Below, one piece after another: positions 11,910-59,030 of a stretch of 64,000 nt of DNA. The notes below the pieces were generated by a model. That model saw only the letters and a list, made by a program, of their open reading frames with translations. It ran no database searches and was not told where the DNA came from. The stretch comes from a virus. The position numbers were made by a program, and so were the translations under genes. Where the stretch lies: positions 24,839 to 88,838 of IMG/VR virus record IMGVR_UViG_3300033153_010718; one strand, written 5' to 3'. Positions within the stretch are counted from its first letter, which is position 1, and the number at the start of each line of letters is the position of its first letter.

Positions 11910-12262
11910 ACGGTTGTTCTACCCAGGTCGATCGAACCCAGCCGCTCAACACCGCCCATCCCCTCCAGCATCTCGGCGCGTTCGCGCAGCGCCTTGCCGG
12001 TGCCGGAGAGCGCCGGAAACTCCGACACCAGCCGAAAGGCGCGCGCGTAGGCGTCGTGCATGAGCACCGGCACGCGGATCGTGCGAACCTTGATCCCGTC
12101 GAGGTGGATGCGCGGCGATTCCAGCGGCGGGCGCGGCAGCGCTCGCATGACGGAGGCCAGCTCCTCATCGTCCGGGTTCTCCCACAGGATGTGAGCCAGC
12201 CCGCAGCGCAGCATCATGAGCTGAACACCGGTCAGCTTGATCGGTGTGCCGGATTTCTTCAC
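11906..12262 (-). CDS. Helical protein, divergent tail
   Basis: 118 aa. Starts at GTG 12262, 6 nt after TAGAAC. Helical N-terminus (LTGVQLMMLRCGLAHIL), and near the end GGVERLGSIDLG resembles a weak AVD tail. No family. Confidence 0.68.
   Translation of the reverse strand: MKKSGTPIKLTGVQLMMLRCGLAHILWENPDDEELASVMRALPRPPLESPRIHLDGIKVRTIRVPVLMHDAYARAFRLVSEFPALSGTGKALRERAEMLEGMGGVERLGSIDLGRTTV
11916..11921 (-). promoter_or_regulatory. GGGTAGAAC element, 6 nt from ATG
   Basis: Minus strand GGGTAGAAC, 6 nt, ATG 11909. It lies inside the last codons of the upstream gene (LGRTTV), so an internal promoter. Confidence 0.65.
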
Positions 12263-12268
12263 GACCCT

Positions 12269-12274
12269 GTTCTA
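12269..12274 (-). promoter_or_regulatory. GGGGTAGAAC element, 6 nt from GTG
   Basis: Minus strand GGGGTAGAAC, 6 nt, GTG 12262, showing that the spacing also holds for GTG starts. Confidence 0.65.
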
Positions 12275-12310
12275 CCCCGGCTCTTGCCCATCACCGGCCG
12301 ATCTGTGAGC

Positions 12311-12823
12311 CTAACCACAGGAAGAGTCGTCGCTACCGTCGTCTGGCGCCAGCGCGGCCAAAGCGTCGATCACGGACACGTGCGCCAGGATCGCGGCACA
12401 GACCGCCTCGAACGCACGACCTTCCCACTTGGCAATGCGCTTCACCGCCGCTCGTCCCATCTCCACGAAGTTCTCGCCGCTGTTGAATTGCTCCTTCAGG
12501 ATGACGCAGACGTACGGCTTGTATCGGTAGCGCTTGCCTTTGGGTGGATAGTACTGGTGATAGCCGCCGGAGCCGCAAGAGCGCCGCCAGTCGGTGGCGA
12601 GCATGTAGCTCTTGATCCACGTCCAGTCCAGGCTCTCGATGAGCTGCGCTCGGCGGTCGTCGCGGTAGACATCCGCGAGCCACTCGGCAACATCGTCCTT
12701 CGAGTGCGCCTTCTCGTCCGAGAACGCGAGCATTAGCTTGCGAACGATCGGCACGAGCGCCGGCCGCAGATCGATCTCGGTCGCGCCAGCTGGAACTTGC
12801 ACAACGAACGGATCCCCGGTCAC
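12311..12823 (-). CDS. Hypothetical protein with AVD tail variant
   Basis: 170 aa. Contains a Tyr/Gly/Lys-rich middle (GGYHQYYPPKGKRYRYK) and a helical C-terminus with VSVIDALAALAPDD near the end. Coupled by GTGA to the gene before it. Unknown role. Confidence 0.72.
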   Translation of the reverse strand: MTGDPFVVQVPAGATEIDLRPALVPIVRKLMLAFSDEKAHSKDDVAEWLADVYRDDRRAQLIESLDWTWIKSYMLATDWRRSCGSGGYHQYYPPKGKRYRYKPYVCVILKEQFNSGENFVEMGRAAVKRIAKWEGRAFEAVCAAILAHVSVIDALAALAPDDGSDDSSCG

Positions 12824-13113
12824 GTCCCCCACGCCTCCTCGGACAGCCGCGCCTTTTCGCGCAGCCAACGCCAGTAGCCGTCCTCCGTTCGCTTGCCGAT
12901 CATCATGTAGTGCGGCGCGTGCGTCCCGTCGATGACCTTCTGCTCCATCGCGGTCAGGCCCATCACACAATCGCCTTCGTGGTCTCTCGCGCGTACGCAA
13001 CGCGACCACGCGGGCGAGCCGACGTAAAAGGCAAGAGACGTCGCGCTGCCGTCCCCGCACCGGAAGAGGTGGGCCAGGCGATCGACAGCGCTCTTGACCT
13101 CCTCAGTCATCAT
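12820..13113 (-). CDS. Small protein with the AVD motif at its N-terminus
   Basis: 97 aa. The motif is at the start (EEVKSAVDRLAHLFRCGDG, residues 4-22) instead of the end, followed by a Cys-containing domain (SRCVRARDHEGDC) and WRWLREKARL. A relocated copy of the motif is strong evidence that it is a portable module. Confidence 0.75.
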   Translation of the reverse strand: MMTEEVKSAVDRLAHLFRCGDGSATSLAFYVGSPAWSRCVRARDHEGDCVMGLTAMEQKVIDGTHAPHYMMIGKRTEDGYWRWLREKARLSEEAWGT

Positions 13114-13315
13114 CCTCCCGCACCAGGTCCCCGAGTTGATCTACGGCCGAGCGCGGCGGGCCGAACGCCGTCACGGTAATCTCGTCGTGGATAGTGGAGA
13201 ACACCGGGCCGAGCTTCGTGACCCCGGCCGTCGCGATCTTCATCGAGGCGGCTAGGCGCTTGAAGGCCGGGAGCAACTGCGCGAAGGCGTCGGAGGTGTT
13301 GGTCTGCCGGCTCAT
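13103..13315 (-). CDS. Small protein with canonical AVD tail
   Basis: 70 aa; helical N-terminus and a short beta part (DEITVTAFGPP) then RSAVDQLGDLVREDDD. Start overlaps the upstream stop (ATGA). Confidence 0.75.
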   Translation of the reverse strand: MSRQTNTSDAFAQLLPAFKRLAASMKIATAGVTKLGPVFSTIHDEITVTAFGPPRSAVDQLGDLVREDDD

Positions 13316-13584
13316 GGTTCCACCACCCGCGCCAGCCGGTCTACCGCAGACCAGGGCTCGTAGACCGGCTCCAGATGCGAGTCCAGCATGCCCTCCCCGA
13401 GCCGGAACGTGATGTTGAACCGCTGCACCAACGAGGGGCACGTCTCGCGCAATCGTAGGATCGTGCCGAACGCGACGCGCTGCCAGTCCCAGGGCGCCAA
13501 GCCGTCCGCCGGCTCCAAGCACTCGCACTCCTCGATCGTTCGGGCCACCAGAACTTTCTCGGCGTGGGTCGGTTCTTCGGTCAC
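13312..13584 (-). CDS. Small protein with AVD tail
   Basis: 90 aa from GTG 13584 (GTGA overlap). CECLEP segment, then a beta-rich part, ending WSAVDRLARVVEP. No family. Confidence 0.73.
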   Translation of the reverse strand: MTEEPTHAEKVLVARTIEECECLEPADGLAPWDWQRVAFGTILRLRETCPSLVQRFNITFRLGEGMLDSHLEPVYEPWSAVDRLARVVEP

Positions 13585-13868
13585 GGTACGACCCGCCACG
13601 GCAAGCGCGGAGGCGAGGGCGCGCCGGGCCGCACCAGATCTGCGAGCCGGTCTACCGCCGAGCGCCGGTCCTGGTAACAGGCCATGGCCATGGCCGTCGC
13701 CATGTAGTTGACCGCGTCGTTCGCCTCCCGCCGCATCCTGTCAACACGGGTCTCGAAGTGTTGGAGTTCGGCGGCGAAACTGGGGGACGCCGGCTCCATG
13801 AAATGCGCCGGCACCACGAGCGCCTTGCTCATCATCAGATTGCGCAGGCGCTCGTATTCCTCCCTCAT
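13581..13868 (-). CDS. Coiled-coil-like protein with AVD motif
   Basis: 95 aa. Long helices (EEYERLRNLMMSK, ETRVDRMRREANDAV) then RRSAVDRLADLVRPG, followed by a Pro-rich 12-residue extension. ATG start in an ATGA overlap. Confidence 0.75.
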   Translation of the reverse strand: MREEYERLRNLMMSKALVVPAHFMEPASPSFAAELQHFETRVDRMRREANDAVNYMATAMAMACYQDRRSAVDRLADLVRPGAPSPPRLPWRVVP

Positions 13869-14212
13869 GGTTCGTTCCTCCCAACATCGCCCAGCAGGTC
13901 CACCGCGCTGATGCCGATAAGATCGGCCACGTCTCGCGCGATCCGCGCCATCTCGGCGCGGTGCTCATCCGGGCCGTGCACCACAGCGAAGCGCGCGAGC
14001 CAGTAGAGCGGTTCGACGAACGACGCGCGCTTGACCATCGTCCCCTCCGCGCGCCCTTGGCCCTGGAACAGCAGAAGTTCTGCGTCGGCGAGCGAGTAGA
14101 CCATCAGATGGCCGGGAACCGCCTCGCGAATCTGCTCCTCCCGGCAGACGGACATCAGGTCGAGCAGGTAGGCGCAGGCGGCAGCGCTGACCGGCACTCC
14201 ATCAGTCGGCAT
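13865..14212 (-). CDS. Helical protein with AVD tail
   Basis: 115 aa, hydrophobic helices in the first half, ends GISAVDLLGDVGRNEP. Unknown. Confidence 0.74.
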   Translation of the reverse strand: MPTDGVPVSAAACAYLLDLMSVCREEQIREAVPGHLMVYSLADAELLLFQGQGRAEGTMVKRASFVEPLYWLARFAVVHGPDEHRAEMARIARDVADLIGISAVDLLGDVGRNEP

Positions 14213-15338: not shown

Positions 15339-15543
15339 CGACCAGCTCCGCCAGTTGATCGACCGCGGGCGCGGGCGCGAGACGATCGGGCGAGAAGACC
15401 CCGCCCTCTCCGTTGTTGAACTTCACGAACCAGCCGCCAGGTCCGTCACCGCCGCGGCTCGTGTCGCGGAGGATCCGACCGAGCATGCTCTGGTACTTCC
15501 CGCGCCGGCCGGTGTAGATGACCAGATCGCCCTCTTTCAGCAT
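15328..15543 (-). CDS. SH3-like barrel with AVD tail
   Basis: 71 aa. EGDLVIYTGRRGKYQSMLGRIL and GGWFVKFNNGEGGVF form barrel-like strands; ends APAVDQLAELVDET. Start taken at ATG in a TGATG overlap. Confidence 0.77.
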   Translation of the reverse strand: MLKEGDLVIYTGRRGKYQSMLGRILRDTSRGGDGPGGWFVKFNNGEGGVFSPDRLAPAPAVDQLAELVDET

Positions 15544-15975: not shown

Positions 15976-16183
15976 CGTCCCCCACGATCGCGGCGAGCTG
16001 GACTACAACCGATTCCGGCTCCAACGCCCCCTGAACGTACTGGACCAAGGGCGCCGGGCGGTCGAGCGCGACCGTGTAGATCGGGCCGATAACACGGCCC
16101 TGGTAGTAGGTCTTGATCTTGCCGGAGCCGTGATGCGCGGTCACCACGCGGTCGCCGACCGCAAAGTGTGCCGGGCTAGGCAT
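15968..16183 (-). CDS. SH3-like barrel with divergent tail
   Basis: 71 aa. VGDRVVTAHHGSGKIKTYY, ends ESVVVQLAAIVGDDA. Paralogue of the two barrels downstream, sharing the V-V-Q-L variant with the one at 15543. Confidence 0.76.
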   Translation of the reverse strand: MPSPAHFAVGDRVVTAHHGSGKIKTYYQGRVIGPIYTVALDRPAPLVQYVQGALEPESVVVQLAAIVGDDA

Positions 16184-16388
16184 CGGCCAGCTCCCCGAGC
16201 AGATCGATCGCGGATCTCGGCACGACCTTCTCGACCGGCACCTCCTTGAGAATCCCGTTCGTGAACGAGAGATCGTAGGACGCGCGTCCGCGCACATTCC
16301 CGCGCACGGCCCAGATCGTCGCCCGCCAGCGCTCCTGCGCGCCTTCCACAGTCTCGTGCAGGTAGTAGACCTTGTCGCCAACCTTCAT
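16176..16388 (-). CDS. SH3-like barrel with AVD tail (operon head)
   Basis: 70 aa. VGDKVYYLHETVE, WRATIWAVRG, ends PRSAIDLLGELADA. First gene after a TAGAAC element 6 nt before ATG 16388. TNGILKEVPVEKV is close to NSLLKEVPLSHI in the plus-strand gene at 20414, so the two arrays share ancestry. Confidence 0.78.
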   Translation of the reverse strand: MKVGDKVYYLHETVEGAQERWRATIWAVRGNVRGRASYDLSFTNGILKEVPVEKVVPRSAIDLLGELADA

Positions 16389-16394: not shown

Positions 16395-16400
16395 GTTCTA
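16395..16400 (-). promoter_or_regulatory. GGGGGTAGAAC element, 6 nt from ATG
   Basis: Minus strand GGGGGTAGAAC, 6 nt, ATG 16388; upstream 63 bp to the previous stop, so a clear operon boundary. Confidence 0.7.
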
Positions 16401-16451
16401 CCCCCGCTCTTGCGCTGCGGTGCACACGCATAGACCATGAAAGCGGAAGAG

Positions 16452-17864: not shown

Positions 17865-18184
17865 GACGCCGTTCTACCCAGGTCCGCGAGACGGTCCACG
17901 GCGCTCCGCTGCTCCTCAAGAAGCTCGTCCAGATCCGAGAAGCCCGCCTCCTCGATCTTCTCTTCGGCGTCGAGCGCCCCTTTGGCGATCTCCAGCAGCT
18001 CGAACAGCGTGCTGTCGGTCAGCGCTTCAAAGAGGTTGGCCTCGTCATCGTCGGTAGTGCGTGCCAACAGCTGGTCGTGTACGTCGGTGATCTCCCACGA
18101 ACCGTAGCGCAGCCTGCTGAACCGCTTGCCGCCGGCCATGCGCGCTGCGAGCAGCTCCAGCGCGGCGATCTTGCCTCTAGTCAT
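17861..18184 (-). CDS. Acidic helical protein with AVD tail
   Basis: 107 aa. Acidic helices (EANLFEALTDSTLFELLEIAK), ends QRSAVDRLADLGRTAS. Start ATG 18184 overlaps the previous stop by eight bases. Confidence 0.74.
   Translation of the reverse strand: MTRGKIAALELLAARMAGGKRFSRLRYGSWEITDVHDQLLARTTDDDEANLFEALTDSTLFELLEIAKGALDAEEKIEEAGFSDLDELLEEQRSAVDRLADLGRTAS
17871..17876 (-). promoter_or_regulatory. GGGTAGAAC element, 6 nt from ATG
   Basis: Minus strand GGGTAGAAC, 6 nt, ATG 17864; overlaps the last codons of the upstream gene (ADLGRTAS), so transcription can restart inside the array. Confidence 0.65.
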
Positions 18185-18745: not shown

Positions 18746-18751
18746 GTTTTA
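18746..18751 (-). promoter_or_regulatory. GGGGTAAAAC promoter of the minus array
   Basis: Minus strand GGGGGGTAAAAC, 6 nt, ATG 18739. Back to back with the plus-strand element 27 bp away, making a divergent promoter pair. Confidence 0.7.
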
Positions 18752-18777
18752 CCCCCCTCGTGCGCCGGCAGCGGGGG

Positions 18778-18783
18778 TAGAAC
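18778..18783 (+). promoter_or_regulatory. GGGGGTAGAAC promoter of the plus array
   Basis: Followed by a 19-nt leader with AGGAG and GTG 18803. This member uses a conventional Shine-Dalgarno, unlike its divergent partner. Confidence 0.7.
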
Positions 18784-25383: not shown

Positions 25384-25584
25384 ATGAACACCATCAGGCT
25401 ATACACGCGCGACGGCCGCATGGTCACCGAGGTCCAGGTACCGCCGTGGAATTCCGCGCCCGAGGTCTACGTGTGGGGCGAGCGAATCTTCGTCCTGCAC
25501 ACCAATGGCCGTTACGAAGAGGCGGCCGGCGTCTTCTTCATCCCGCCACAGATCGCCGAGCCCGACGCGCCGACACCGGGGTAG
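25384..25584 (+). CDS. Small beta-rich protein
   Basis: 66 aa; strands (IRLYTRDGRMVTEVQV, IFVLHTNGRYEEA). An ACAGGAGGG Shine-Dalgarno lies 5 nt upstream, and TTTGATAGCCTGGGGA before it resembles the TTTGAAACCTGGGGTA elements at 44.6-45.2 kb. Confidence 0.72.
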   Translation: MNTIRLYTRDGRMVTEVQVPPWNSAPEVYVWGERIFVLHTNGRYEEAAGVFFIPPQIAEPDAPTPG

Positions 25585-25587
25585 AAC
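25582..25587 (+). promoter_or_regulatory. GGGGTAGAAC promoter element
   Basis: 21-nt spacer with AGGAGGA before ATG 25609; overlaps the stop of the previous gene. Confidence 0.65.
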
Positions 25588-25899: not shown

Positions 25900-26212
25900 G
25901 CCCAAGTTCAAGATCGGCGACCGCGCCACGGCTTTTGGCCATATCGGGACCGTTGTCGCCGTCGGCTGGACGCCAATGGCCGAGCCAACCGCCGTCTACC
26001 GGTTGAAGCTGGAGTACGAGAACCCGTGGGCGACGGACCCGTGGCCGCGCCCGATCAGCAGCGGTCCGTACGGCGAGACCGTGCTCCCTGGTCTGCTAAA
26101 GAACGGCGAGCGCGACTTTCACGAGACGTATCTCACAGCCTACGGCTCTGCCGTAGACCGACTCGGCGATCTCGTCCGGCCGGGGCAAGACCTGGGTAGA
26201 ACAAGGGCATGA
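25883..26212 (+). CDS. SH3-like barrel with AVD tail
   Basis: 109 aa from GTG. FKIGDRATAFGHIGTVVAVGW, Pro-rich loop, YGSAVDRLGDLVRPG, then QDLGRTRA encoded by DNA that also contains the next TAGAAC element. Confidence 0.76.
   Translation: MAPASEPKFKIGDRATAFGHIGTVVAVGWTPMAEPTAVYRLKLEYENPWATDPWPRPISSGPYGETVLPGLLKNGERDFHETYLTAYGSAVDRLGDLVRPGQDLGRTRA
26197..26202 (+). promoter_or_regulatory. GGGTAGAAC element, 6 nt from ATG
   Basis: GGGTAGAAC, 6 nt, ATG 26209; inside the 3' end of the previous gene. Leaderless spacing. Confidence 0.68.
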
Positions 26213-34622: not shown

Positions 34623-34831
34623 GTCTCTGTTCTACCCAGCTCTGCCAACGCGAGCACCGCAGGCTGCTCGATGTAGCAGCCGTCGGCGTGACGACTCAGG
34701 CGATGGCCCTCGCACGTGTGCCACGCCCAGACCTCGCCGTCGCCTCCCAAGATCAGCTCGCCCCAGCACGGCCTGCCCGAAGCACCGCGGTCGCTGAGCG
34801 TGCTTACCCAGCACTCGGGCTGCTCAGGCAT
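34619..34831 (-). CDS. CWG/CEGH tandem family, copy 1
   Basis: 70 aa. C-x7..., RPCWGELI, HTCEGHRL, YIEQPAVLALAELGRTET. The three Cys plus His probably form one metal site; PAVLALAELA is a variant tail. Last of five consecutive paralogues. Confidence 0.75.
   Translation of the reverse strand: MPEQPECWVSTLSDRGASGRPCWGELILGGDGEVWAWHTCEGHRLSRHADGCYIEQPAVLALAELGRTET
34629..34634 (-). promoter_or_regulatory. GGGTAGAAC element, 6 nt from ATG
   Basis: Minus strand GGGTAGAAC, 6 nt, ATG 34622; inside the last codons (AELGRTET) of the upstream paralogue. Confidence 0.66.
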
Positions 34832-35060
34832 CAGCCAACTCCGCAAGCGCGAGGACAGCAGGCTGTTCGACGTAGACCTGCTGGTCGTAGAGCAGCCGGT
34901 GACCCTCGCACGCGTAGACCGCGTGCGAGGAGAAGGGCTTCCCCGACTTCCAGTTCGTCCTGATCGTCGCTGCGACCTTCACCACTCCCCAGCACGGTCC
35001 GCCGAGCTGCCCGCTGACCAGCGAGTTGTCCACGTCCCTCGTCCAGCACTTCTCAGTCAT
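34824..35060 (-). CDS. CWG/CEGH tandem family, copy 2
   Basis: 78 aa. GPCWGVV, YACEGHRLLY, YVEQPAVLALAELADA. Eight-base overlap with copy 3. Confidence 0.75.
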   Translation of the reverse strand: MTEKCWTRDVDNSLVSGQLGGPCWGVVKVAATIRTNWKSGKPFSSHAVYACEGHRLLYDQQVYVEQPAVLALAELADA

Positions 35061-35256
35061 CGACAAGATCCGACAGCGCGATGACGGCCGGCTTCTCGAC
35101 GTAGGGTCCGCCGCTGTAGACCAGCCGATGGCCCTCGCACGCGTAGATCGGATCGAGAGCTTCGACGATGAGGATGCGGCGAGCCTCCCCGATCGCGCCC
35201 CAGCACGCCCCCAGCTTGTCATCAGCCGCCCGGCACCCGCGCCCCGGCTCAGTCAC
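35053..35256 (-). CDS. CWG/CEGH tandem family, copy 3
   Basis: 67 aa. GACWGAIGEA, YACEGHRLVY, YVEKPAVIALSDLVDD; the tail here is closest to the canonical D-L-V form. Confidence 0.75.
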   Translation of the reverse strand: MTEPGRGCRAADDKLGACWGAIGEARRILIVEALDPIYACEGHRLVYSGGPYVEKPAVIALSDLVDD

Positions 35257-35446
35257 GGGCTAGCTCCGCGAGAGCGAGCACAGCCGGCTGTTTGATGTAG
35301 TCGTCGCCGCGCCACGTGTTCCGGTGACCCTCGCACGCGCAGAGAACCTCCTCGTCGAGCCGGACCGGATCCACGCGTGTCACCGCGCCCCAGCACGGCC
35401 CCCCGTAGCGGCCCCCGTACACGCAGCACTCGGGCTTCTCAGGCAT
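35249..35446 (-). CDS. CWG/CEGH tandem family, copy 4
   Basis: 65 aa. GPCWGAV, CACEGHRNTW, YIKQPAVLALAELARD. Confidence 0.75.
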   Translation of the reverse strand: MPEKPECCVYGGRYGGPCWGAVTRVDPVRLDEEVLCACEGHRNTWRGDDYIKQPAVLALAELARD

Positions 35447-35789
35447 CAGCCAGCTCGGCCAAAGCCACGACCGCGGGCTTCTCGATGTAGGCGCCCTGCT
35501 CGTAGAACAGCTGGTGCCCCTCGCACGCGTAGATCTCGTGCGCGACGTCGCGATCCCCCTCCTCGTAGTCGCAGTAGGGCTCCGAGACCAGTCGATCGAT
35601 CTTGACCGTAGCCACGCACCGCGTCGCGCCCCAACACGGCCCACCGATCACGGTCAGGTCCAGGTCCCGGTCCGACCAAGCGCACTCCGGCGCGCAAGGC
35701 TCGCGGTGGACAGCGTAGAGGTCAGGCCATTTTGGGTATTTTGCCAGCCCTTCCACACCGCCCTCCCGCGTTACAGAACCGTTACTCAC
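35439..35789 (-). CDS. CWG/CEGH tandem family, copy 5 (long)
   Basis: 116 aa. An extra N-terminal segment (PDLYAVHREPCAPECAW) precedes GPCWGATR, YACEGHQLFY and YIEKPAVVALAELADA. Probably the parent copy of the tandem expansion. Confidence 0.74.
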   Translation of the reverse strand: MSNGSVTREGGVEGLAKYPKWPDLYAVHREPCAPECAWSDRDLDLTVIGGPCWGATRCVATVKIDRLVSEPYCDYEEGDRDVAHEIYACEGHQLFYEQGAYIEKPAVVALAELADA

Positions 35790-38458: not shown

Positions 38459-38464
38459 GTTCTA
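38459..38464 (-). promoter_or_regulatory. GGGTAGAAC promoter element
   Basis: Minus strand AGGGTAGAAC, leader with GAGGAGGG, ATG 38435. Confidence 0.66.
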
Positions 38465-38649
38465 CCCTGGTTCGCGGACTCTGCGCAGTCCTCGGTTCCC
38501 GGATCTGGACTTGGTGTTGATGTGAAGGCGGGCTCTTAGGAGTCCCGATGTTGCCGAGGCGGCGGGGTAGGGGGTCGGCGTGGCGGACCTCGACAGCAGC
38601 CACCATTCTGTGCAGGAGCTTGCGCAGTCCGCCGTGCTACTCTGGATGG

Positions 38650-41977: not shown

Positions 41978-41986
41978 AGCTCCGGG

Positions 41987-41992
41987 TAGAAC
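41987..41992 (+). promoter_or_regulatory. GGGTAGAAC element, 6 nt from ATG
   Basis: GGGTAGAAC, 6 nt, ATG 41999, in genuine intergenic DNA, so no coding explanation for the element. Confidence 0.72.
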
Positions 41993-41998: not shown

Positions 41999-42211
41999 AT
42001 GAGGATCTTCGAGAAGGGCGACCGCGTCTGGTTCCGCCGCGACCGCGACCGTGAGCGGCGGCCACCGCGGCTCGCCACGGTCGTGCGCGCCAGCCACGTA
42101 CTCGTCGAGATCCAGCTCGACGAGGGCGGCGGCGTCGATCACAAGATCCTCGCCCGCGAGTACGAGGTCTGGCCCCTGTCCGCAGTCGAGCTGCTGGCCG
42201 AGCTGGCCTAA
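41999..42211 (+). CDS. SH3-like barrel with AVD tail
   Basis: 70 aa. FEKGDRVWFRRDRDRERRPPRLATVVRAS, ends WPLSAVELLAELA at the stop. A lone example outside the arrays with its own promoter: here the tail cannot be explained by a following coupled gene. Confidence 0.8.
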   Translation: MRIFEKGDRVWFRRDRDRERRPPRLATVVRASHVLVEIQLDEGGGVDHKILAREYEVWPLSAVELLAELA

Positions 42212-42459: not shown

Positions 42460-42547
42460 AGCAGCCAAACCGTCAGCAGCTGCATCCGCCGCGGTCTACC
42501 CTAAGAGGGCCGCCCGGAATCCCCTAACCGCTGTCTGCAGACCCGGG

Positions 42548-42553
42548 TAGAAC
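42548..42553 (+). promoter_or_regulatory. GGGTAGAAC promoter element
   Basis: Leader of 26 nt containing GGAAGA before GTG 42580. Confidence 0.6.
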
Positions 42554-42828: not shown

Positions 42829-42864
42829 CATACTCTGGAGTATGTCGTTATACTCCCAGAGTAT
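42829..42864. promoter_or_regulatory. Paired operator ATACTCTGG(G)AGTAT
   Basis: Site 1 CATACTCTGGAGTATG (42829-42844) and, inverted, site 2 ATACTCCCAGAGTAT (42850-42864), about 20 bp centre to centre (two helical turns). They abut the TATAAC promoter of the XRE gene at 42900, as expected of autorepression. Confidence 0.75.
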
Positions 42865-42876
42865 GGATGTCGGGGG

Positions 42877-42882
42877 TATAAC
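42877..42882 (+). promoter_or_regulatory. GGGGGTATAAC promoter
   Basis: GGGGGTATAAC, then GGAGG and ATG 42900. A variant of the GGGGTAGAAC element placed just after the operators. Confidence 0.62.
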
Positions 42883-42899
42883 GCTGAACTGGAGGTCTT

Positions 42900-43956: not shown

Positions 43957-43962
43957 GTTCTA
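43957..43962 (-). promoter_or_regulatory. GGGGTAGAAC promoter element
   Basis: Minus strand CGGGGTAGAAC, leader GGGAGAGGAGCGAG, ATG 43938. Confidence 0.65.
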
Positions 43963-43987
43963 CCCCGCGCCGCGCCCCGCGAACAGG

Positions 43988-44602: not shown

Positions 44603-44631
44603 GTGGATTTGAAACCTGGGGTAAGGATTGG
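44603..44631 (+). repeat. 29-bp direct repeat, promoter-like, copy 1
   Basis: Contains TTTGAAACCTGGGGTAAGG; identical to 44884-44912. GGGGTA followed by purines makes it a relative of the GGGGTAGAAC element. Confidence 0.65.
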
Positions 44632-44689
44632 CCGGTGGACGCCCACATCGGCAGCCGGCCGGGAGGGATAGGGAGAGGTGGAGGCCCCC

Positions 44690-44893
44690 ATGAATGACCC
44701 GCACGACCGGCTGCACGACCGGCTCGCCTACGGCTTCGAGCTGCTCTCCGACGACCCTCCCGATGAGCCGAGCCTGGAGCGCCGACCCGACCCTCTCCCT
44801 CCTGACCCTCGGGGAGTACCGGCAGCTCCTACCTGGTCGAGGTGGTGGCGGACTGCTGGGGGGCGTTGGCTCCCTCTTGAGTCGTGGATTTGA
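44690..44893 (+). CDS. Hypothetical protein, possibly frameshifted
   Basis: 67 aa. MNDPHDRLHDRLAYGFELLSDD is protein-like, but after about residue 35 this frame becomes Pro/Arg-rich while the +1 frame gives TLGEYRQLLPG, which looks more like a real continuation. Perhaps a decayed gene between two copies of the repeat. Confidence 0.4.
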   Translation: MNDPHDRLHDRLAYGFELLSDDPPDEPSLERRPDPLPPDPRGVPAAPTWSRWWRTAGGRWLPLESWI

Positions 44894-44912
44894 AACCTGG
44901 GGTAAGGATTGG
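44884..44912 (+). repeat. 29-bp direct repeat, promoter-like, copy 2
   Basis: Identical to 44603-44631; both are followed a few bases later by GGTGGACG. Confidence 0.65.
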
Positions 44913-44977
44913 ATGGTGGACGGGCGGTGATGACATTGGCCTGGACCTGGCCCGCCGGGGGTGCCACGGTCGGGGGC

Positions 44978-45220
44978 ATGGACGACCTCGACGACCTCTT
45001 GGGACGAGTACCCGAAGCGCTCCGCGTGGAGCTTGAAGCCGTGGACTGCGGTCGCGCGCTCGACCTGGCCCGCCAGTTCGTCTCCAGCAACGAAGAGGAC
45101 CAGGCCGGCATGATGGCCTTCATCGAGAGCGCTGGCCCGCGGCGGGTTCACGAGCTGAAGGTCAACCACCGGGACGGGACGCCGACTTCGGCTGATCTGG
45201 CAAGTTGGCCGTGCGTTTGA
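44978..45220 (+). CDS. Small acidic protein
   Basis: 80 aa. DDLDDLLGRVPEALRVELEAVDCG is acidic helix. GGGGG Shine-Dalgarno before ATG 44978; ATG 44930 is an alternative. A third TTTGAGACCTGGGGTA copy overlaps its stop. Confidence 0.55.
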   Translation: MDDLDDLLGRVPEALRVELEAVDCGRALDLARQFVSSNEEDQAGMMAFIESAGPRRVHELKVNHRDGTPTSADLASWPCV

Positions 45221-45443
45221 GACCTGGGGTAGAGCGCGCCAGCCAGCTGGTCCGCGCCCGCGCGGCGGGAGTCCGCGCTGACCTGCGAGTTAAGCTGTGG
45301 CTTACGAGACCGCTGGCGCCCCGACCATAGGGGCACCAGCAGGGTGGGATGGCCCGTACGGGGTAGTGGCCGGACCGGTCGGTGGTTACTCTGCTGCTGC
45401 TACAACGAGCGGGGTCGGCGTCGTGGCTTGACTGCGGCGCCGA
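45221..45443. other. Gene-free stretch
   Basis: Holds one palindrome-family copy (45318-45334) and nothing else recognised; separates the sparse region from the next minus array. Confidence 0.55.
45318..45334. repeat. GCCCC-GACCATA-GGGGC palindrome, copy
   Basis: Perfect GCCCCGACCATAGGGGC followed by ACCAGCAGG, as at 42238-42250 and 42457. Confidence 0.62.
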
Positions 45444-45713
45444 CTACGCCAGCTCCGCGAGCCGATCGATCGCCGAGCGGTGCCTGACGGCGACCAGCTC
45501 GAAGGTCCAGACCTTCTTGGCGGTGTCGTAGATCGAGCCTGCGCTCAGCCAGCAGCGGACCGGGGCATCGTTGGTCACGTCGATACCGACTACCGTGGCC
45601 GGGTGCCAGCCGACGCCACCGCCCCGGAGCGAGGTGTGCACCTCGACGCGGTCTCCGATCTCGTAGGGCGGAAGCTCGAAGGTCTCGTCGTCGATCGTGA
45701 TCGTGCGGCTCAT
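45444..45713 (-). CDS. SRTITI-type SH3-like barrel with AVD tail
   Basis: 89 aa. MSRTITIDDETFELPPYEIGDRVEV, HPATVVGIDV, RCWL, ends RHRSAIDRLAELA. Member of a paralogous set sharing the short N-terminal hairpin, YEIGDRV and ATVVG-[VI] (also at 45710, 45997, 46323, 47745, 51689, 54075, 59031). Confidence 0.8.
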   Translation of the reverse strand: MSRTITIDDETFELPPYEIGDRVEVHTSLRGGGVGWHPATVVGIDVTNDAPVRCWLSAGSIYDTAKKVWTFELVAVRHRSAIDRLAELA

Positions 45714-46580: not shown

Positions 46581-46798
46581 GGGACCAGGTCCGCCAGCCG
46601 ATCGATCACCGAGCGGGGTCGGATCTCGACCGCGAGGTCACGAGCGTAGACAGTGCAGTACGTGCCGTCGTCGAGCAGAACCTCTGCGCCCAGTCCTGGG
46701 GTCTCGGGGTAGACGTTGCTGATCGTGGCGCGCCGCGGCGGCTGGGGGGCTGGCCACGTGCGGCAGAACCAGACGGGGTCGCCGATCGCGTGGCTCAC
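46577..46798 (-). CDS. SH3-like barrel with AVD tail
   Basis: 73 aa from GTG. IGDPVWFCRTW, PRRATISNVYP, AEVLLDDG, ends RPRSVIDRLADLVP. Confidence 0.79.
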   Translation of the reverse strand: MSHAIGDPVWFCRTWPAPQPPRRATISNVYPETPGLGAEVLLDDGTYCTVYARDLAVEIRPRSVIDRLADLVP

Positions 46799-47031
46799 GA
46801 GACCAGGTCCGCGAGCCGCTCGACAGCCGACAGTGGGTAGACCTGGTCCTCGGCCAAGGTCATCAGGAGATCGTGGGCGAGGTCAGGCCGCACGTGGTAG
46901 TAGCGGCCCTGGTGGTCCGGGTCCAGGCGCTTCATGATCTGGCCGCGGTGCCGGCCGGCCAGCAGGTTGCTGCCGCCGCTGTCCCAGGTCGGGACGTGGA
47001 ACACGACGCGGTCGCCGACCTCGTAGCTCAT
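46795..47031 (-). CDS. SH3-like barrel with AVD tail
   Basis: 78 aa. YEVGDRVVFHVPTW, RGQIMKRLD, YYHVRPD, ends YPLSAVERLADLVS. Confidence 0.79.
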   Translation of the reverse strand: MSYEVGDRVVFHVPTWDSGGSNLLAGRHRGQIMKRLDPDHQGRYYHVRPDLAHDLLMTLAEDQVYPLSAVERLADLVS

Positions 47032-47255: not shown

Positions 47256-47261
47256 GTTCTA
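47256..47261 (-). promoter_or_regulatory. GGGTAGAAC element, 6 nt from ATG
   Basis: Minus strand CGGGTAGAAC, 6 nt, ATG 47249; its TAG is also the stop of the small membrane protein upstream. Confidence 0.7.
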
Positions 47262-47363
47262 CCCGGGGATGAAGAGGTAGCTGATCCCAACCGCCCAGAT
47301 CGCCGCGACTACGACGGCGAAGACGCAGAGGGCCAACACGTCGCTCTTGGTGTCGGGGTGCAC
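47259..47363 (-). CDS. 34-aa single-pass membrane miniprotein
   Basis: GTG start, then HPDTKSDVLALCVFAVVVAA and IWAVGISYLFIPG: one transmembrane helix with a short polar N-terminus. GAGG lies 6 nt upstream. Holin-accessory or membrane-anchor roles are possible but unsupported. Confidence 0.5.
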   Translation of the reverse strand: MHPDTKSDVLALCVFAVVVAAIWAVGISYLFIPG

Positions 47364-47401
47364 GCCTCGATCTTCGCGCAGCGGAGCCGCGCAGGCCAGG
47401 G

Positions 47402-47407
47402 TAGAAC
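47402..47407 (+). promoter_or_regulatory. GGGTAGAAC promoter element
   Basis: 18-nt spacer containing GGGAG before ATG 47426. Confidence 0.66.
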
Positions 47408-51275: not shown

Positions 51276-51281
51276 GTTCTA
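51276..51281 (-). promoter_or_regulatory. GGGGGTAGAAC promoter element
   Basis: Minus strand GGGGGTAGAAC, 25-nt leader containing GAAGGGA, ATG 51250. Confidence 0.64.
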
Positions 51282-51362
51282 CCCCCGTCGCTGGCTGGCG
51301 GATTTGAAATCAGGGGTAAATCTCAGAAATCACACTTGGTTCGGGGACAGACGACGCCCTAG

Positions 51363-51581: not shown

Positions 51582-51688
51582 GCGAGGGTTGGCCGGGGCA
51601 GGGGCTGCCAGTCCCCGGTGGCGGCCGTTGGCTTGGTCCACCCGAGCACGACCCCGGCTTCACCCTCTCAGGTACCTGTCTCTACGTT

Positions 51689-51943
51689 CTACCCCGGTGC
51701 CAGCTCCGCGAGCTGGTCAATCACCGAGAGCGGCGCGACGTCCTCGACACCGCAGTGCCAGGCGCCAAGCCACGGGCCCGTGTCGAACCAGACGCACAGG
51801 CGGCGGTAGCGGTCGCCGGCGACGATGTTGACGCCAACGACCGTGGCCAGCGCCGCCTTGCCGTTGTGCGTCGCCATCACCCGGTCGCCGATCTCGAACG
51901 GCGGCACCCCGAACTCTCTCCCGCGAATCGTGACCGTCTTCAT
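51689..51943 (-). CDS. SRTITI-type SH3-like barrel with AVD tail
   Basis: 84 aa. KTVTIRGREFGVPPFEIGDRVMA, LATVVGVNIVAG, LCVWFDTG, ends APLSVIDQLAELAPG. Its TAG stop is part of a GGGGTAGAAC element that has no start codon 6-7 nt away, perhaps a relic of a lost downstream gene. Confidence 0.79.
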   Translation of the reverse strand: MKTVTIRGREFGVPPFEIGDRVMATHNGKAALATVVGVNIVAGDRYRRLCVWFDTGPWLGAWHCGVEDVAPLSVIDQLAELAPG

Positions 51944-52409: not shown

Positions 52410-52415
52410 GTTCTA
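52410..52415 (-). promoter_or_regulatory. GGGTAGAAC element, 6 nt from ATG
   Basis: Minus strand TGGGTAGAAC, 6 nt, ATG 52403, in front of a 53-aa ORF too short to be found by length alone. Confidence 0.66.
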
Positions 52416-52448
52416 CCCAAGTAGCGCCTAGCTTGGGCAGACATCTTC

Positions 52449-53016: not shown

Positions 53017-53022
53017 GTTCTA
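53017..53022 (-). promoter_or_regulatory. GGGGTAGAAC element, 6 nt from ATG
   Basis: Minus strand CGGGGTAGAAC, 6 nt, ATG 53010; intergenic, not overlapping any coding sequence. Confidence 0.72.
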
Positions 53023-53096
53023 CCCCGACCGCGGCAGAGCGGGCCGACCGCCGCCCCGCCAGAGGACAAAGGCCGTTAGTAATCCCGCACGCGGGG

Positions 53097-53102
53097 TAGA
53101 AC
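53097..53102 (+). promoter_or_regulatory. GGGGTAGAAC element, 6 nt from ATG
   Basis: GCGGGGTAGAAC, 6 nt, ATG 53109; intergenic and divergent from the element at 53017. Confidence 0.72.
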
Positions 53103-53108: not shown

Positions 53109-53609
53109 ATGCGCGCGATCCAGCTGACCCCCGGCCCTCTTCGCAAGTCCGGCCCCGGTTGCCGCACCAAGCGGTGCACGATCGAGCTGGACCTGGGGGC
53201 GTTCGACGCGCGACTGCGTAAGGCAGCGCTGACTGCGGCCGACTGGCACATCAACACGCTTGCGGCTGAACCGGGAGCGCACGGCGCCGCGCTGTCCGAG
53301 CGCGACCGCCTGAGCACGTGGTGGTGGCGGCACCTGGCCATCGGCATCGCCGACCCGAGCGGCTGCACGGTGATCTGGCACGGCTGGTACTTCCTCACCG
53401 CCTCGCCGGGCTCGCGCAAGATCTGCGCAATCCTTCTCGGCGAGGAGACGGACGACGCCATCCTTGACCTGTTCGACGGGCGCGTCTCTCGCGAGGGGCG
53501 GTTGGCTCGGGCGCGAGATGCGCTGAAGGCTGCGTGGGACTCACGCTCGACGGTAGTCGATAGGCTGGGCTCCCTGCTTTCGGAATCGGGGGTAGAACAA
53601 GGGACATGA
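53109..53609 (+). CDS. Hypothetical protein with AVD tail
   Basis: 166 aa. RKSGPGCRTKRCTIELDLGAFD, Trp-rich middle (STWWWRHLAIGIAD), then SRSTVVDRLGSLLSESGVEQGT. Head of the last plus array. Confidence 0.75.
   Translation: MRAIQLTPGPLRKSGPGCRTKRCTIELDLGAFDARLRKAALTAADWHINTLAAEPGAHGAALSERDRLSTWWWRHLAIGIADPSGCTVIWHGWYFLTASPGSRKICAILLGEETDDAILDLFDGRVSREGRLARARDALKAAWDSRSTVVDRLGSLLSESGVEQGT
53593..53598 (+). promoter_or_regulatory. GGGGTAGAAC element, 7 nt from ATG
   Basis: GGGGGTAGAAC, 7 nt, ATG 53606; read in a different coding frame from the other intragenic copies, so the DNA and not the peptide is conserved. Confidence 0.66.
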
Positions 53610-54078: not shown

Positions 54079-54329
54079 GCCGCACGCCGCGCACGGTTCG
54101 CCTGCTCGGAGTGGACATGCCGGTCCCGTACTACGAGATCGGCGAGCGCGTCGAGGTGCGCAGCTACCAGGGGTGGACGCCGGCCCTGGTCATCGGCATC
54201 AACCTCCTACCGACGATACGCGACCAGCACCTGAGCATCCTGCTCGATGGCCGGGTCACGCCTATGGGCGTGCCCATGAGTGCCGTGAGACCACTGTCCG
54301 CCGTTGAACAGCTGGCGGGGCTGGCATGA
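54075..54329 (+). CDS. SRTITI-type SH3-like barrel with AVD tail
   Basis: 84 aa. RTVRLLGVDMPVPYYEIGERVEV, TPALVIGINLL, LSILLDG, ends RPLSAVEQLAGLA. Confidence 0.79.
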   Translation: MSRTPRTVRLLGVDMPVPYYEIGERVEVRSYQGWTPALVIGINLLPTIRDQHLSILLDGRVTPMGVPMSAVRPLSAVEQLAGLA

Positions 54330-54574: not shown

Positions 54575-55239
54575 AAGCCGCCCGCTCGTCGGTGGACCAG
54601 CTAGCCGACATCGGCCGACGCGAGATCGCAATCGCCGCGCTGCTCGCCCGCGTGAAGACCGGCGAGCTGACCAGGGAACGGCTAGAGCTGGCCGCCTACC
54701 TGGGCGACCCGATCGCGCGCGGGGCGCTCGGTAACGTCATCGACCGCGAACGCGACTCTCTCGACGTCTGGTGCCAAGAGTTCCGCCGCCTGGCCACCGC
54801 TTGCGGGTTCGAGTGGATGGCGGCCATGCGGGCTTCGCTGGCCGCGGCGCACGAGGTGTTCGATGCGTGGCACGACTCACCTGCCCGCGACTGCGGCTGC
54901 CCGGCTGACCCCGGCATCCACGGGTGCATACCGCAGCCCGAGACCGTGAGGGACGTCTCGCGCGTACTGGACGCTGCCGAGTGCTACGCCGACGAACCAA
55001 GCAGAGTGGCCGAGAGAGTGTGGAGCAACGCCTGCAACCAACTGGAGTACGAGGATCTGTCCGAGTGGTTGCCGGTGCCCTACGTCAACGCGCGGCGCTA
55101 CATGACAGACGTCGTGTCGTCTGCTGACCTGGCCTACGAGCCGCACGTGCGCTTGGCCATTCGGAAGGATCTTGTGCCGTGGGTGCTCAACGCCTGGGTG
55201 GGCCCAGGATTCGAGATCAGGGGTAGAACAGGACCATGA
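54571..55239 (+). CDS. Conserved helical protein with N-terminal AVD motif
   Basis: 222 aa. ARSSVDQLADIGRRE at residues 4-18, then ARVKTGELTRERLELAAYLGDP, then Cys patches and EWLPVPYVNARRYM. Same architecture as 29471, but with the motif added at the front: a clear gain of the module in one paralogue. Confidence 0.78.
   Translation: MKAARSSVDQLADIGRREIAIAALLARVKTGELTRERLELAAYLGDPIARGALGNVIDRERDSLDVWCQEFRRLATACGFEWMAAMRASLAAAHEVFDAWHDSPARDCGCPADPGIHGCIPQPETVRDVSRVLDAAECYADEPSRVAERVWSNACNQLEYEDLSEWLPVPYVNARRYMTDVVSSADLAYEPHVRLAIRKDLVPWVLNAWVGPGFEIRGRTGP
55224..55229 (+). promoter_or_regulatory. GGGGTAGAAC element, 6 nt from ATG
   Basis: TTCGAGATCAGGGGTAGAAC, 6 nt, ATG 55236; upstream bases match the TTTGAAATCAGGGGTA at 51303. 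Confidence 0.7.
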
Positions 55240-56753: not shown

Positions 56754-57079
56754 CGCCCAAGCAGCAGCTCGTAATCGAGGAGCTGGCGACTGGCGCTGTC
56801 CTGCACCCGCCGAACTACACCTTCTACGCGACCGGGTTCCTGACCAGCGCGTCCGACACGTGGAAGAACAGATCGAGGGCAGCGCAGCGCATCGCGGACA
56901 CGACGCGAGATGCCATTCGTCAGCGGCTCTGCGCCCTGTGCCGGCCAGGCGCGCGCCTGTCGGACGTGGTCTTCGTCCACCCGGCCACCGTAAGCGCCCG
57001 CCTCGCCGCGGGCTGGGTCAAGGCTCACCACACCGATCGCGACGTGAAGCGCTACGAAGAAGCGCGGCGGGAATCGTGA
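56750..57079 (+). CDS. Helical protein
   Basis: 109 aa. Helices with a CALCRPG pair and basic ends. Unknown; ATGA coupled. Confidence 0.72.
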   Translation: MTPKQQLVIEELATGAVLHPPNYTFYATGFLTSASDTWKNRSRAAQRIADTTRDAIRQRLCALCRPGARLSDVVFVHPATVSARLAAGWVKAHHTDRDVKRYEEARRES

Positions 57080-57252
57080 ACGCTAACCAAGTGGCCGCAG
57101 AAGCGCTGGGCGTGGCCCACCAACAGGTCCAAGCCCGCAAGCTGCTCGGGTATCCAGCTGCTGTGCTCACCCTGCAAGAGCTGCTGGCGCACGCTTGGCT
57201 GTGCGGCGCCATCGACGTGCTCACGGCGCAGGCCAAGGCGCCCCAGCCGTGA
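57076..57252 (+). CDS. 58-aa helical miniprotein
   Basis: GTG start. NQVAAEALGVAHQQVQARKLLGYP is helix-turn-helix-like, then a hydrophobic helix. Could bind DNA; unproven. Confidence 0.62.
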   Translation: MNANQVAAEALGVAHQQVQARKLLGYPAAVLTLQELLAHAWLCGAIDVLTAQAKAPQP

Positions 57253-57494
57253 CCGCACTAAAGGCCGGTCTCATGTGGTCTACGCGCCACCGCACGGATC
57301 GGAAGACGCACGTCTACCTGAATGACGCGTCCGTCAATCCGATCTGCAACGCGCCGGGCGCAGACCGGCTTCTGTGGGACGCGGACGAGGCGACCGAGAC
57401 GCCGGCCGAGCTGATAGAACGAATCGAGCGCACCGACGCGGACCGGCTCGTCTGCCGGACGTGCCTGCGATCACTGAAGGCGCGGTTGCGATGA
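57249..57494 (+). CDS. Knuckle-ended small protein
   Basis: 81 aa from GTG. HVYLNDASVNPICN and CRTCLRSLKARLR; relative of 57945, 58268 and 58534 by the C-terminal C-x-TC helix, but it has lost the tail. Confidence 0.7.
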   Translation: MTALKAGLMWSTRHRTDRKTHVYLNDASVNPICNAPGADRLLWDADEATETPAELIERIERTDADRLVCRTCLRSLKARLR

Positions 57495-57640
57495 CCACAA
57501 GCGAACGGTGGGGCGGATTCAGCAAGCGGGGCATGGGGAAGCTCAGGCTGGGCTGGTGGCGCCTGCTACTGCCGGCGGTCGCGGCCCTGCTGATCCTTGC
57601 GATAGCTGCCATCGTGAATGCGGTCTGGCCATGCACCTGA
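57491..57640 (+). CDS. 49-aa single-pass membrane protein
   Basis: Basic, Trp-rich N-terminus, then LLLPAVAALLILAIAAIVNAV. N-in topology by the positive-inside rule. Confidence 0.64.
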   Translation: MTTSERWGGFSKRGMGKLRLGWWRLLLPAVAALLILAIAAIVNAVWPCT

Positions 57641-57948
57641 TCACCTTCGGGAACCGCACGCTGTCGCTGCGCCAGTGGAGTCAAGAGACCGGCATCAACG
57701 TAAGCACGCTCTACTCGCGCGTGAAGGCCGGCTATTCGGCCAAGGAGCTACTCGACCCGAACTCTGGGCGGCGTCGCCAGCTGGCCGCGCTCGCCGAGGG
57801 GCGCGTTGCGTCCGAGAAGCTGCTGACCTGCGGCGGCGAGACCATGACGATGGCCGAGTGGGCGCGGCAGACCGGCATCCAGAAGCGAACGATCCGCGAG
57901 CGGTTGCGCGCCGGCTGGACGGTAGAGAAAGCGCTCGGTCGCGCGTGA
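57631..57948 (+). CDS. Double HTH protein
   Basis: 105 aa. Two tandem units: LSLRQWSQETGINVSTLYSRV...SAKELLDP and MTMAEWARQTGIQKRTIRERL...VEKALGRA. Each is a short HTH common beside HNH endonucleases and phage regulators. Paralogue of 43756. Confidence 0.82.
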   Translation: MHLITFGNRTLSLRQWSQETGINVSTLYSRVKAGYSAKELLDPNSGRRRQLAALAEGRVASEKLLTCGGETMTMAEWARQTGIQKRTIRERLRAGWTVEKALGRA

Positions 57949-58271
57949 GCGTCCTGACCGTCACGGTACGGCGATCCGACCACGCCATCGTGGACGCGTG
58001 CCCGAGGTCATGGGATGGCCCTGTGGTGATGAGCCTGCGCCTGCCGGACGACGACCACGTTCACGTCGGCAAGCGGCACGTCTCTTCCCGCCTCTACGAA
58101 AACCGCTTCTCTTCACTGTGCGGCAAGTTCTGGCGCGGCATCTGGGGATTCCCCACCAACATCGAGCCAGCTGTCCGAACGCTCGCGGAATGCAATGACC
58201 CCTGCCCGACCTGCGCGGAGAAGCTGGCCGAGCTGCGCGATCCGATCACGCGCTTGGGGGACCTGGCATGA
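57945..58271 (+). CDS. Cys-knuckle protein with DPITRLGDLA tail
   Basis: 108 aa. Beta strands with HVHVGKRHVSSRL, then CNDPCPTCAEKLAELRDPITRLGDLA. First of three tandem paralogues whose knuckle runs straight into the tail. Confidence 0.77.
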   Translation: MSVLTVTVRRSDHAIVDACPRSWDGPVVMSLRLPDDDHVHVGKRHVSSRLYENRFSSLCGKFWRGIWGFPTNIEPAVRTLAECNDPCPTCAEKLAELRDPITRLGDLA

Positions 58272-58537
58272 CCGCGCCGTGCGAGGACACGAAAGTCACG
58301 TTGGGCTACCTGCAACCAGACCACCATAGGCTGCACGTAGGCCAGTGGCAGCACGGCGTGGGGAACGTCGCGTTGTGCAAGCGCTACCCCATCGAGGGGA
58401 CCTGGGGCTCGCCCGTCACTCCCAAGGTGGCGTGGCGCAACATGCAGCAGCGCAGCACGCGACCGGTCTGCGCGACCTGCCGCGACCTGCTCGTCGCCAT
58501 GCTCGACCCGGTCACCAGACTCGGGAACCTGACGTGA
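58268..58537 (+). CDS. Cys-knuckle protein with DPVTRLGNLT tail
   Basis: 89 aa. HHRLHVGQWQHG, VALCKRY, PVCATCRDLLVAMLDPVTRLGNLT. Confidence 0.77.
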   Translation: MTAPCEDTKVTLGYLQPDHHRLHVGQWQHGVGNVALCKRYPIEGTWGSPVTPKVAWRNMQQRSTRPVCATCRDLLVAMLDPVTRLGNLT

Positions 58538-58812
58538 ACGTCGCGCTGGGCATCCCCTTCCGCTACAGCGAGGACGACGCGAGCCTGCACGCGGGCTTGC
58601 GTACACAGGGCGGCTACGTGGCGCTCTGCAACGACATGGACGAGATCGACTTGCGTTACGGCGGCTGGGGCACCTGGGCAGCCGAGATCTCCGTCGAGGT
58701 GGCGGCGCGACGACTGCGCGAAGCCGATGAGGCGAGGCCGATCTGCCGGACCTGCCTCGCGCGCCTGCAAGACCTGCGCGATCCGGTCACGCGGCTGGGC
58801 GAGCTGTCATGA
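58534..58812 (+). CDS. Cys-knuckle protein with DPVTRLGELS tail
   Basis: 92 aa from GTG. DASLHAGLRTQGG, VALCNDM, RPICRTCLARLQDLRDPVTRLGELS. Third of the tandem set. Confidence 0.77.
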   Translation: MNVALGIPFRYSEDDASLHAGLRTQGGYVALCNDMDEIDLRYGGWGTWAAEISVEVAARRLREADEARPICRTCLARLQDLRDPVTRLGELS

Positions 58813-59012
58813 ACCGGCCACCGCGCGACCGCTACAACGACTGGCGAGCCAACACGGCAGCGCACGTACCCGGGCCGCCCTCGGCCGTAGAACGCCTGGC
58901 CGCTCTCGAAGATCCTGTGATCGCAGCGCGCATCAAGGCGTGGGACGAGCACGTCAACTTCGGAAGCCTGTACCGCGCCGAGTTCCCGCAGCGGCGCACC
59001 GGCCAGCGCTGA
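58809..59012 (+). CDS. SAVDxLAALxDPxG-family protein D
   Basis: 67 aa. PPSAVERLAALEDPVIAARIKAWDEH in the middle, like the three tandem minus-strand genes at 30755-31517; GSLYRAEF at the end. Confidence 0.75.
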   Translation: MNRPPRDRYNDWRANTAAHVPGPPSAVERLAALEDPVIAARIKAWDEHVNFGSLYRAEFPQRRTGQR

Positions 59013-59018
59013 CCAGGG

Positions 59019-59024
59019 TAGAAC
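59019..59024 (+). promoter_or_regulatory. GGGTAGAAC element, 6 nt from ATG
   Basis: AGGGTAGAAC, 6 nt, ATG 59031; just downstream of the previous stop, not inside coding sequence. Confidence 0.7.
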
Positions 59025-59030
59025 ACACGC

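Follow-up and report, generated by a model that had tools for sequence, protein, structure and literature searches.

A nearly invariant -10-type element, predicted to drive leaderless and leadered genes, in an uncultured T4-like phage and its relatives

Background

The 64,000-nucleotide (nt) stretch analysed here, referred to as the window, comprises positions 24839-88838 of IMG/VR record IMGVR_UViG_3300033153_010718, a 120,043-base-pair (bp) fragment of the genome of an uncultured T4-like phage. Many of its gene starts are closely preceded by the nine-nucleotide element GGGTAGAAC, which recurs in related phage genomes. Judging from its sequence context, we consider it very probable that copies of RnCCn-GGGTAGAAC act as -10-type promoters, leaderless or leadered, about half of them leaderless. 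An earlier sequence-only reading of the window had predicted leaderless promoters from TAGAAC-type elements lying 6-7 nt before start codons, and its claims are taken up below where the evidence bears on them.

Results

The phage and its relatives

The record that contains the window encodes a T4-type major capsid protein (Gp23), an S77 prohead protease and an intein-bearing T4-type portal. No isolated phage is close: identity of its capsid protein to INPHARED records does not exceed about 31%, and a megablast search for 51-60 kilobases (kb) returned no match. Relatives in IMG/VR comprise G002 (159,664 bp), G008 (275,101 bp), G001 (51.7 kb) and G005 (62 kb), the last with motif sites identical to those in a part of G002. 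DNA identity is 81% across 121 kb aligned between G002 and G008 and about 72% over 17 kb between the window's record and G008; G+C content is near 0.65 in all three. Counts for three records refer to the window's 120-kb record, G002 and G008, of which the first two are fragments.

A nine-nucleotide element at a fixed distance from start codons

Allowing at most one mismatch, the window contains 31 occurrences of GGGGTAGAAC, where dinucleotide shuffles predict 2.05 (0 of 100 shuffles reached 31); TAGAAC occurs 32 times, where 7.2 are expected. Exact GGGTAGAAC is present there in 23 copies, and 13 of them are followed by ATG or GTG (RTG) at exactly 6 nt; at an RTG frequency of 0.026 the binomial P is about 3e-15. 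The whole record holds 34 exact copies, 17 with RTG at 6 nt, and together with 29 in G002 and 51 in G008 these make 114. At distance 6 from the 114 copies we found 49 ATG and 7 GTG codons and no TTG or CTG, while each other distance from 0 to 40 showed between 0 and 8 ATG codons. Among the 2,520 permutations of the 9-mer, the next best had 5 RTG at distance 6, against 56 for the element itself. The fixed-spacing search proposed in the sequence-only reading thus decisively failed to return the equal frequency at random distances that would have spoken against its prediction. That reading spoke of 13 cases and listed 15 starts; each of the 15 is preceded by the element, the spacing being 7 nt for 53606 and 6 nt for the other 14. 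All are ATG save the GTG at 12262, and the form before 18739 is GGGTAAAAC.

When all hexamers at positions -12 to -7 of ATG codons were ranked, TAGAAC came first (56 occurrences where 2.2 were expected, z 36) and TAAAAC and TAGAAT came next, in that order, a -10-like pattern of the form TA(G/A)AA(C/T). The GGGTAAAAC variant is also enriched at 6 nt. TAGAAT stands at the leaderless spacing in only 5 cases, and the element does not conform to the sigma-70 hexamer TAnnnT. In the aligned copies a weak RnCCn at about -20 to -16 precedes GGG at -15 to -13 and TAGAAC at -12 to -7, with a pyrimidine at -1 and a purine at +1. The GGGG that had been read as an extended -10 part held for GGG, the fourth G being variable. 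In the core, A may replace the G of the first position or the G at -10, and in rare cases T replaces the C at -7; its remaining positions hardly vary. As -35 signals, TTGACA, GTTT, GGAAC and TTGCTT scored no better than control positions in the aligned copies, and the -35 element about 17 bp upstream that typifies sigma-70 promoters was not seen. Canonical TTGACA-TATAAT promoters (at most 2 mismatches) number 0 in the window's record, and the relatives have one orthologous pair, a single conserved TTGACC-N17-TAGAAT promoter in G002 and G008; the 190-amino-acid (aa) protein downstream of it gave no family match.

Two classes of leader

Transcription starts favour a pyrimidine at -1 and a purine at +1. 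Directly before the leaderless starts a pyrimidine is found in 55 of 56 cases, compared with 197 of 398 other ATG starts (P 2e-14), as expected of a transcription start, which argues that the element is a promoter and not a translation signal. The occurrence of only ATG and GTG at distance 6 points the same way, since leaderless translation in mycobacteria begins at these two codons only (PMC4633059).

Forty-five copies lack RTG at 5-9 nt, and in 24 of them a start with a strong Shine-Dalgarno site lies at 16-26 nt; none of the 45 has a Shine-Dalgarno start at 13-15 nt. Such strong starts follow 1.6% of random positions (20,000 drawn), and among the 69 copies with a near start only 4 have one. 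With transcription beginning 7 nt behind TAGAAC, this class would therefore have leaders of 10-20 nt, just enough for a Shine-Dalgarno site. A looser classing that accepts any short Shine-Dalgarno word divides the 45 into 31 leadered and 14 unassigned copies, a class defined by the Shine-Dalgarno site itself, so that the random-position-controlled count (24 of 45) is the test to rely on. In the leadered copies A is enriched at the position that matches the first base of the leaderless start (14 of 31). Six of the 56 RTG codons at 6 nt open reading frames of fewer than 30 codons, which are possibly leader peptides.

These two classes bear on a different explanation, in which the element would be a start-associated sequence (SAS) acting in translation and, within the mRNA, would recruit the ribosome or a phage factor. 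Its conserved position close before the starts of non-structural genes would suit such a role. We nevertheless regard it as highly improbable: SAS (GGGATAGGAGCCC or GGGAAAGGACCCC) contains a Shine-Dalgarno core 3-9 bp from the start, whereas the core here is GGGTAGAAC, without AGGAG; other copies stand 16-26 nt before starts that have a Shine-Dalgarno site of their own; and a translation element would not demand a pyrimidine at -1 in 55 of 56 cases.

Distribution among genes, relatives and bacterial genomes

The same element is present in G002 and G008, on mostly non-homologous genes, with reversed-pattern controls giving 0 or 1. The 92 proteins encoded downstream of it fall into 76 families, and its position before unrelated genes again argues for a promoter. 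The leaderless promoters of the sequence-only reading are accordingly supported by the pyrimidine at -1, the restriction to ATG and GTG, the Shine-Dalgarno leader class and the recurrence on non-homologous genes. A pattern search of all IMG/VR gave 22 matches with the 6-nt spacing, mostly in these relatives, and 4 scattered matches with a 10-nt spacing.

Counting functional copies only, the longest copy-free stretch of G008 spans 66 kb (200.2-266.6 kb) and contains the genes for tail sheath, tape measure and baseplate, that of G002 spans 48.5 kb, and the first 30 kb of the window's record, with capsid and portal genes and tRNAs, are likewise devoid of copies. The element therefore appears to serve regions of small non-structural genes, and their genome position suggests that these genes are probably expressed early or in host takeover.

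Copies also occur as divergent pairs, at 18746/18775 and 53017/53094 in the window and, one base apart, at 163192/163194 in G008, where adjacent inverted copies GTTCTACCC-n-GGGTAGAAC are found. Such inverted copies, and the character of the element as a short, asymmetric, repeated site mostly near gene starts, would fit an operator for a phage repressor or activator, like the stoperators of Cluster A phages. An operator leaves unexplained the exact 6-nt spacing to ATG and GTG only, the two leader classes and the TA(G/A)AA(C/T) substitutions, and we judge it a most unlikely account of the element; a regulator could bind in addition to a promoter role.

A scan of 84,980 species genomes for RnCCn-GGGTAGAAC-N5-CATGA gave 37 single matches, scattered among them. 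Within one phylum (395 genomes) we counted the element at 6 nt 46 times, against 37 for the reversed control, and the centre genome of that set, G037, had 4 matches against 0. None of the genomes scanned carries the element at high density, and the true host may be unsampled; GGGTAGAAC is not a common promoter in the sampled bacterial genomes.

A candidate reading factor

One protein of G008, 299 aa long, scores above the Pfam cut-off for Sigma70 region 2, and contig G020 encodes a protein 84% identical to it. Because G020 overlaps G002 by 788 identical bases, the two are probably from the same phage. A structure model of low confidence (mean predicted local distance difference test score 57) weakly matched region 2 of sigma-E (E about 0.75), a similarity that by itself carries little weight. 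This sigma-like protein of the relatives, resembling the extracytoplasmic function (ECF) type, is the only candidate reader that we found. Searches of the window's record and G002 for Sigma70 region 2, region 4 and gp55 relatives gave nothing save the helix-turn-helix (HTH) of an HNH endonuclease, and an apparent sigma region 4 match in G001 and G002 was rejected as this same HTH. There was no match to the gp55 family (phrog_234) in G000, G001, G002 or G008, and a T4 gp55 query also found no relative. Among the best Pfam matches of G008 proteins of at least 300 aa (25 of 47 families listed) no RNA polymerase family appeared, and a smaller or diverged polymerase may exist. A GGAAC-like -35 of ECF promoters was at control level in the aligned copies.

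An HNH endonuclease gene of G002, near 84.0 kb (L054 near 4.4 kb), lies on the strand opposite to that of the surrounding genes. Its ATG is preceded at exactly 6 nt by TATGAT, in the manner of a leaderless gene with a canonical -10, which differs from GGGTAGAAC.

Sites in the window and other features

Sites in the window are compiled in Table 1. Our gene calls were made with a simple codon-usage caller that rewards Shine-Dalgarno sites and is biased against leaderless starts, and several starts (34622, 53010, 55236) were missed or shifted by it.

Table 1. Copies and variants of the element in the window, with the start codons that follow them
Element	Position	Strand	Class	Downstream start	Remark
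GGGTAGAAC	5235..5243	-	leadered	ATG 5218	GGAGG
GGGTAGAAC	11916..11924	-	leaderless type	ATG 11909	6 nt
GGGTAGAAC	12269..12277	-	leaderless type	GTG 12262	6 nt
GGGTAGAAC	16395..16403	-	leaderless type	ATG 16388	6 nt
GGGTAGAAC	17871..17879	-	leaderless type	ATG 17864	6 nt
GGGTAAAAC variant	18746..18754	-		ATG 18739	6 nt; divergent partner 18775
GGGTAGAAC	18775..18783	+	leadered	GTG 18803	AGGAG
GGGTAGAAC	25579..25587	+	leadered	ATG 25609	AGGAGG
GGGTAGAAC	26194..26202	+	leaderless type	ATG 26209	6 nt
GGGTAGAAC	34629..34637	-	leaderless type	ATG 34622	6 nt; gene caller's start 34472
GGGTAGAAC	38459..38467	-	leadered	ATG 38435	GAGGAGG
GGGTAGAAC	41984..41992	+	leaderless type	ATG 41999	6 nt
GGGTAGAAC	42545..42553	+		not clear
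GGGTATAAC variant	42874..42882	+	leadered	ATG 42900	GGAGG; HTH_3 regulator gene
GGGTAGAAC	43957..43965	-	leadered	ATG 18 nt downstream	GAGGAG
GGGTAGAAC	47256..47264	-	leaderless type	ATG 47249	6 nt
GGGTAGAAC	47399..47407	+	leadered	ATG 47426	GGGAG
GGGTAGAAC	51276..51284	-	leadered	ATG 51250	AGGGA
GGGTAGAAC	51686..51694	-		not clear
GGGTAGAAC	52410..52418	-	leaderless type	ATG 52403	6 nt
GGGTAGAAC	53017..53025	-	leaderless type	ATG 53010	6 nt; divergent partner 53094
GGGTAGAAC	53094..53102	+	leaderless type	ATG 53109	6 nt
GGGTAGAAC	53590..53598	+		ATG 53606	7 nt; within 3' end of upstream gene
GGGTAGAAC	55221..55229	+	leaderless type	ATG 55236	6 nt; within 3' end of upstream gene
GGGTAGAAC	59016..59024	+	leaderless type	ATG 59031	6 nt

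Directly upstream of the GGGTATAAC promoter of the HTH_3 regulator lie inverted repeats CATACTCTGGAGTATG and ATACTCCCAGAGTAT (42829-42899), likely an autoregulatory operator by which the gene would control its own promoter. The TTTGAAA-C-x-GGGGTA sites, suggested earlier as a fuller form of the element, turned out to be a separate repeat plus an unrelated site, none of them with TAGAAC at 6 nt. Those at 44.6, 44.9 and 45.2 kb represent the three copies of a direct repeat of 39 nt that contains TGGATTTGAAACCTGGGGTAAGGATTGG (44603-44641; 44884-44922, 95% identical to the first; 45211-45249, 62%), followed by TAAGGA or TAGAGC, and that at 51.3 kb is followed by TAAATC.

A second start-associated leader, GTAGAACTTnnGGCCAGCGTTGTTRGCGGGG...GGAG, stands at a fixed 48-51 nt before ATG and may form a hairpin (GCCAGC-GTT-GTTGGC). 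Its sites are 59571-59620, 62267-62316 and 62558-62609 in the window, 12628-12677 and 13078-13126 in L009 and about 6522-6571 in L012, and its counterpart in G002 and G008 reads TGTGAGAAC...GGTTGTTGAGAGGGG...AAGGAG.

A C-terminal peptide, e.g. SAVDRLAELA, is shared by 62 of the 238 called proteins of the window's record (about a quarter), among them those of genes 10623-10871, 13312-13584, 16176-16388, 41999-42211, 45444-45713, 46795-47031, 54117-54329 and 58268-58537 of the window and others in L011 and L012. Without this tail the proteins form about 50 families, and internal windows carry the peptide at 0.7%; it is also found in G008 (43 of 372) and G002 (12 of 194). Because its codons vary, the peptide looks selected as protein, possibly as a docking or targeting tag. 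At 34824-35756 on the minus strand, four small proteins encoded in tandem resemble one another in their tails (..KPAVIALSDLVDD and the like) and are probably recent duplicates. Just left of the window, 28 tRNA genes occupy about 5 kb (L010 whole; L009 19830-19902); the tRNA array of G002 (L051) is larger and is accompanied by a transfer-messenger RNA (tmRNA) with the tag ANAPVRLAA, which may offer a lead to the host. Within the window no known RNA families were found.

Discussion

Taken as a promoter, the element would be of the extended -10 kind, with GGG at -15 to -13, TAGAAC at -12 to -7 and no -35 element. Transcription would start about 7 nt past the last base of TAGAAC, on a purine preceded by a pyrimidine. 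At about half of the copies this purine would be the first base of ATG or GTG, giving a leaderless mRNA on whose 5' end the ribosome begins, and most other copies would give an RNA with a 10-20-nt leader bearing a Shine-Dalgarno site. The genes driven would be small and non-structural, probably early or concerned with host takeover. Promoter function, start site, timing and reading factor are what we infer from these patterns, the identity of the reader with much less assurance. Since the 9-mer hardly varies and no sampled host genome uses it as a common promoter, the reader would probably be host RNA polymerase with its specificity altered by a phage factor.

Several points weigh against this reading. 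Twenty-one of the 114 copies lack both a start at 5-9 nt and, at 13-27 nt, a start with a strong Shine-Dalgarno site. Sigma-70-type -10 elements usually end in T, and TAGAAC ends in C. Counts from G002 and G008 are partly correlated by descent and not fully independent. Leaderless translation differs between hosts. As to the reader, no ECF-like sigma gene is present in the genome fragment of 120 kb that holds the window, and ECF sigmas normally require a -35 element, none being seen at GGGTAGAAC copies.

The same promoters might be read by the housekeeping sigma of a host that itself prefers GGGTAGAAC and leaderless genes, with no phage factor. TAGAAT-like -10 elements are typical of high-GC actinobacteria, one conserved TTGACC-N17-TAGAAT promoter is present in G002 and G008, and, if the genes are early, host polymerase must read their promoters unaided. 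Set against this are the near invariance of the 9-mer, the missing -35 and the failure of any sampled genome to be dense in the element, and we rate this account as a serious possibility of somewhat less than even chance. That estimate concerns the reader only: the account shares, and overlaps with, the promoter interpretation, to which it is no alternative. The fuller proposal, that these T4-like jumbo phages encode an ECF-like factor of their own that reads GGGTAGAAC without a -35 and commands a dedicated regulon, about half of it leaderless, so separating early translation from Shine-Dalgarno use, is tentative and on balance unlikely.

Most predicted phage promoters are loose matches, unlike this nearly invariant element, which would fix promoter, transcription start and start codon jointly for tens of genes per genome. 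It corrects gene starts where Shine-Dalgarno-based callers fail (34622, 53010), groups small genes lacking known function as one expression class, or regulon, and, as a search pattern, found relatives in metagenomes. It also makes testable whether a phage can base a large regulon on leaderless translation.

Comparison with known systems

Leaderless -10 promoters are known; a nearly invariant one without a -35, on tens of unrelated genes per phage genome, we did not find described, and our literature search found no paper describing this element. Actinobacterial leaderless genes have 6 nt between the -10 element and the start codon, as here. Late promoters of T4, read by gp55, likewise consist of one nearly invariant element in the -10 region without a -35, a single-element architecture shared with the present T4-like phage; they differ in sequence and in gene class, the genes here being non-structural, and no gp55 relative was detected. 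The GGGTA core is common to the promoters of group 3 sigma factors (SigB/SigF type), GTTT-N15-GGGTAT, whose GTTT at -35 is not above control in the phage element. Leaderless genes of mycobacteria and other actinobacteria resemble the phage genes in that RNA starts at ATG or GTG, as predicted here, and TTG and CTG are unused (PMC4633059), but these bacterial genes have a loose housekeeping -10, whereas the phage element is a nearly invariant 9-mer with GGG on unrelated genes.

The closest phage case is that of SAS and the extended start-associated sequence (ESAS) in Cluster K mycobacteriophages and EF Microbacterium phages, short conserved sequences directly before the starts of non-structural genes, the EF ESAS having a GTAGAG core (PMC3203893, PMC7302621, PMC11373665). 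For gene 90 of Adephagia a leaderless transcript has been predicted (PMC11373665). In those phages SAS overlaps the Shine-Dalgarno site and the promoter, complete with -35 and -10, lies separately in ESAS (PMC3203893, PMC7302621, PMC11373665), whereas here the element itself occupies the -10 position as the sole conserved part, and many of the genes behind it have no Shine-Dalgarno site.

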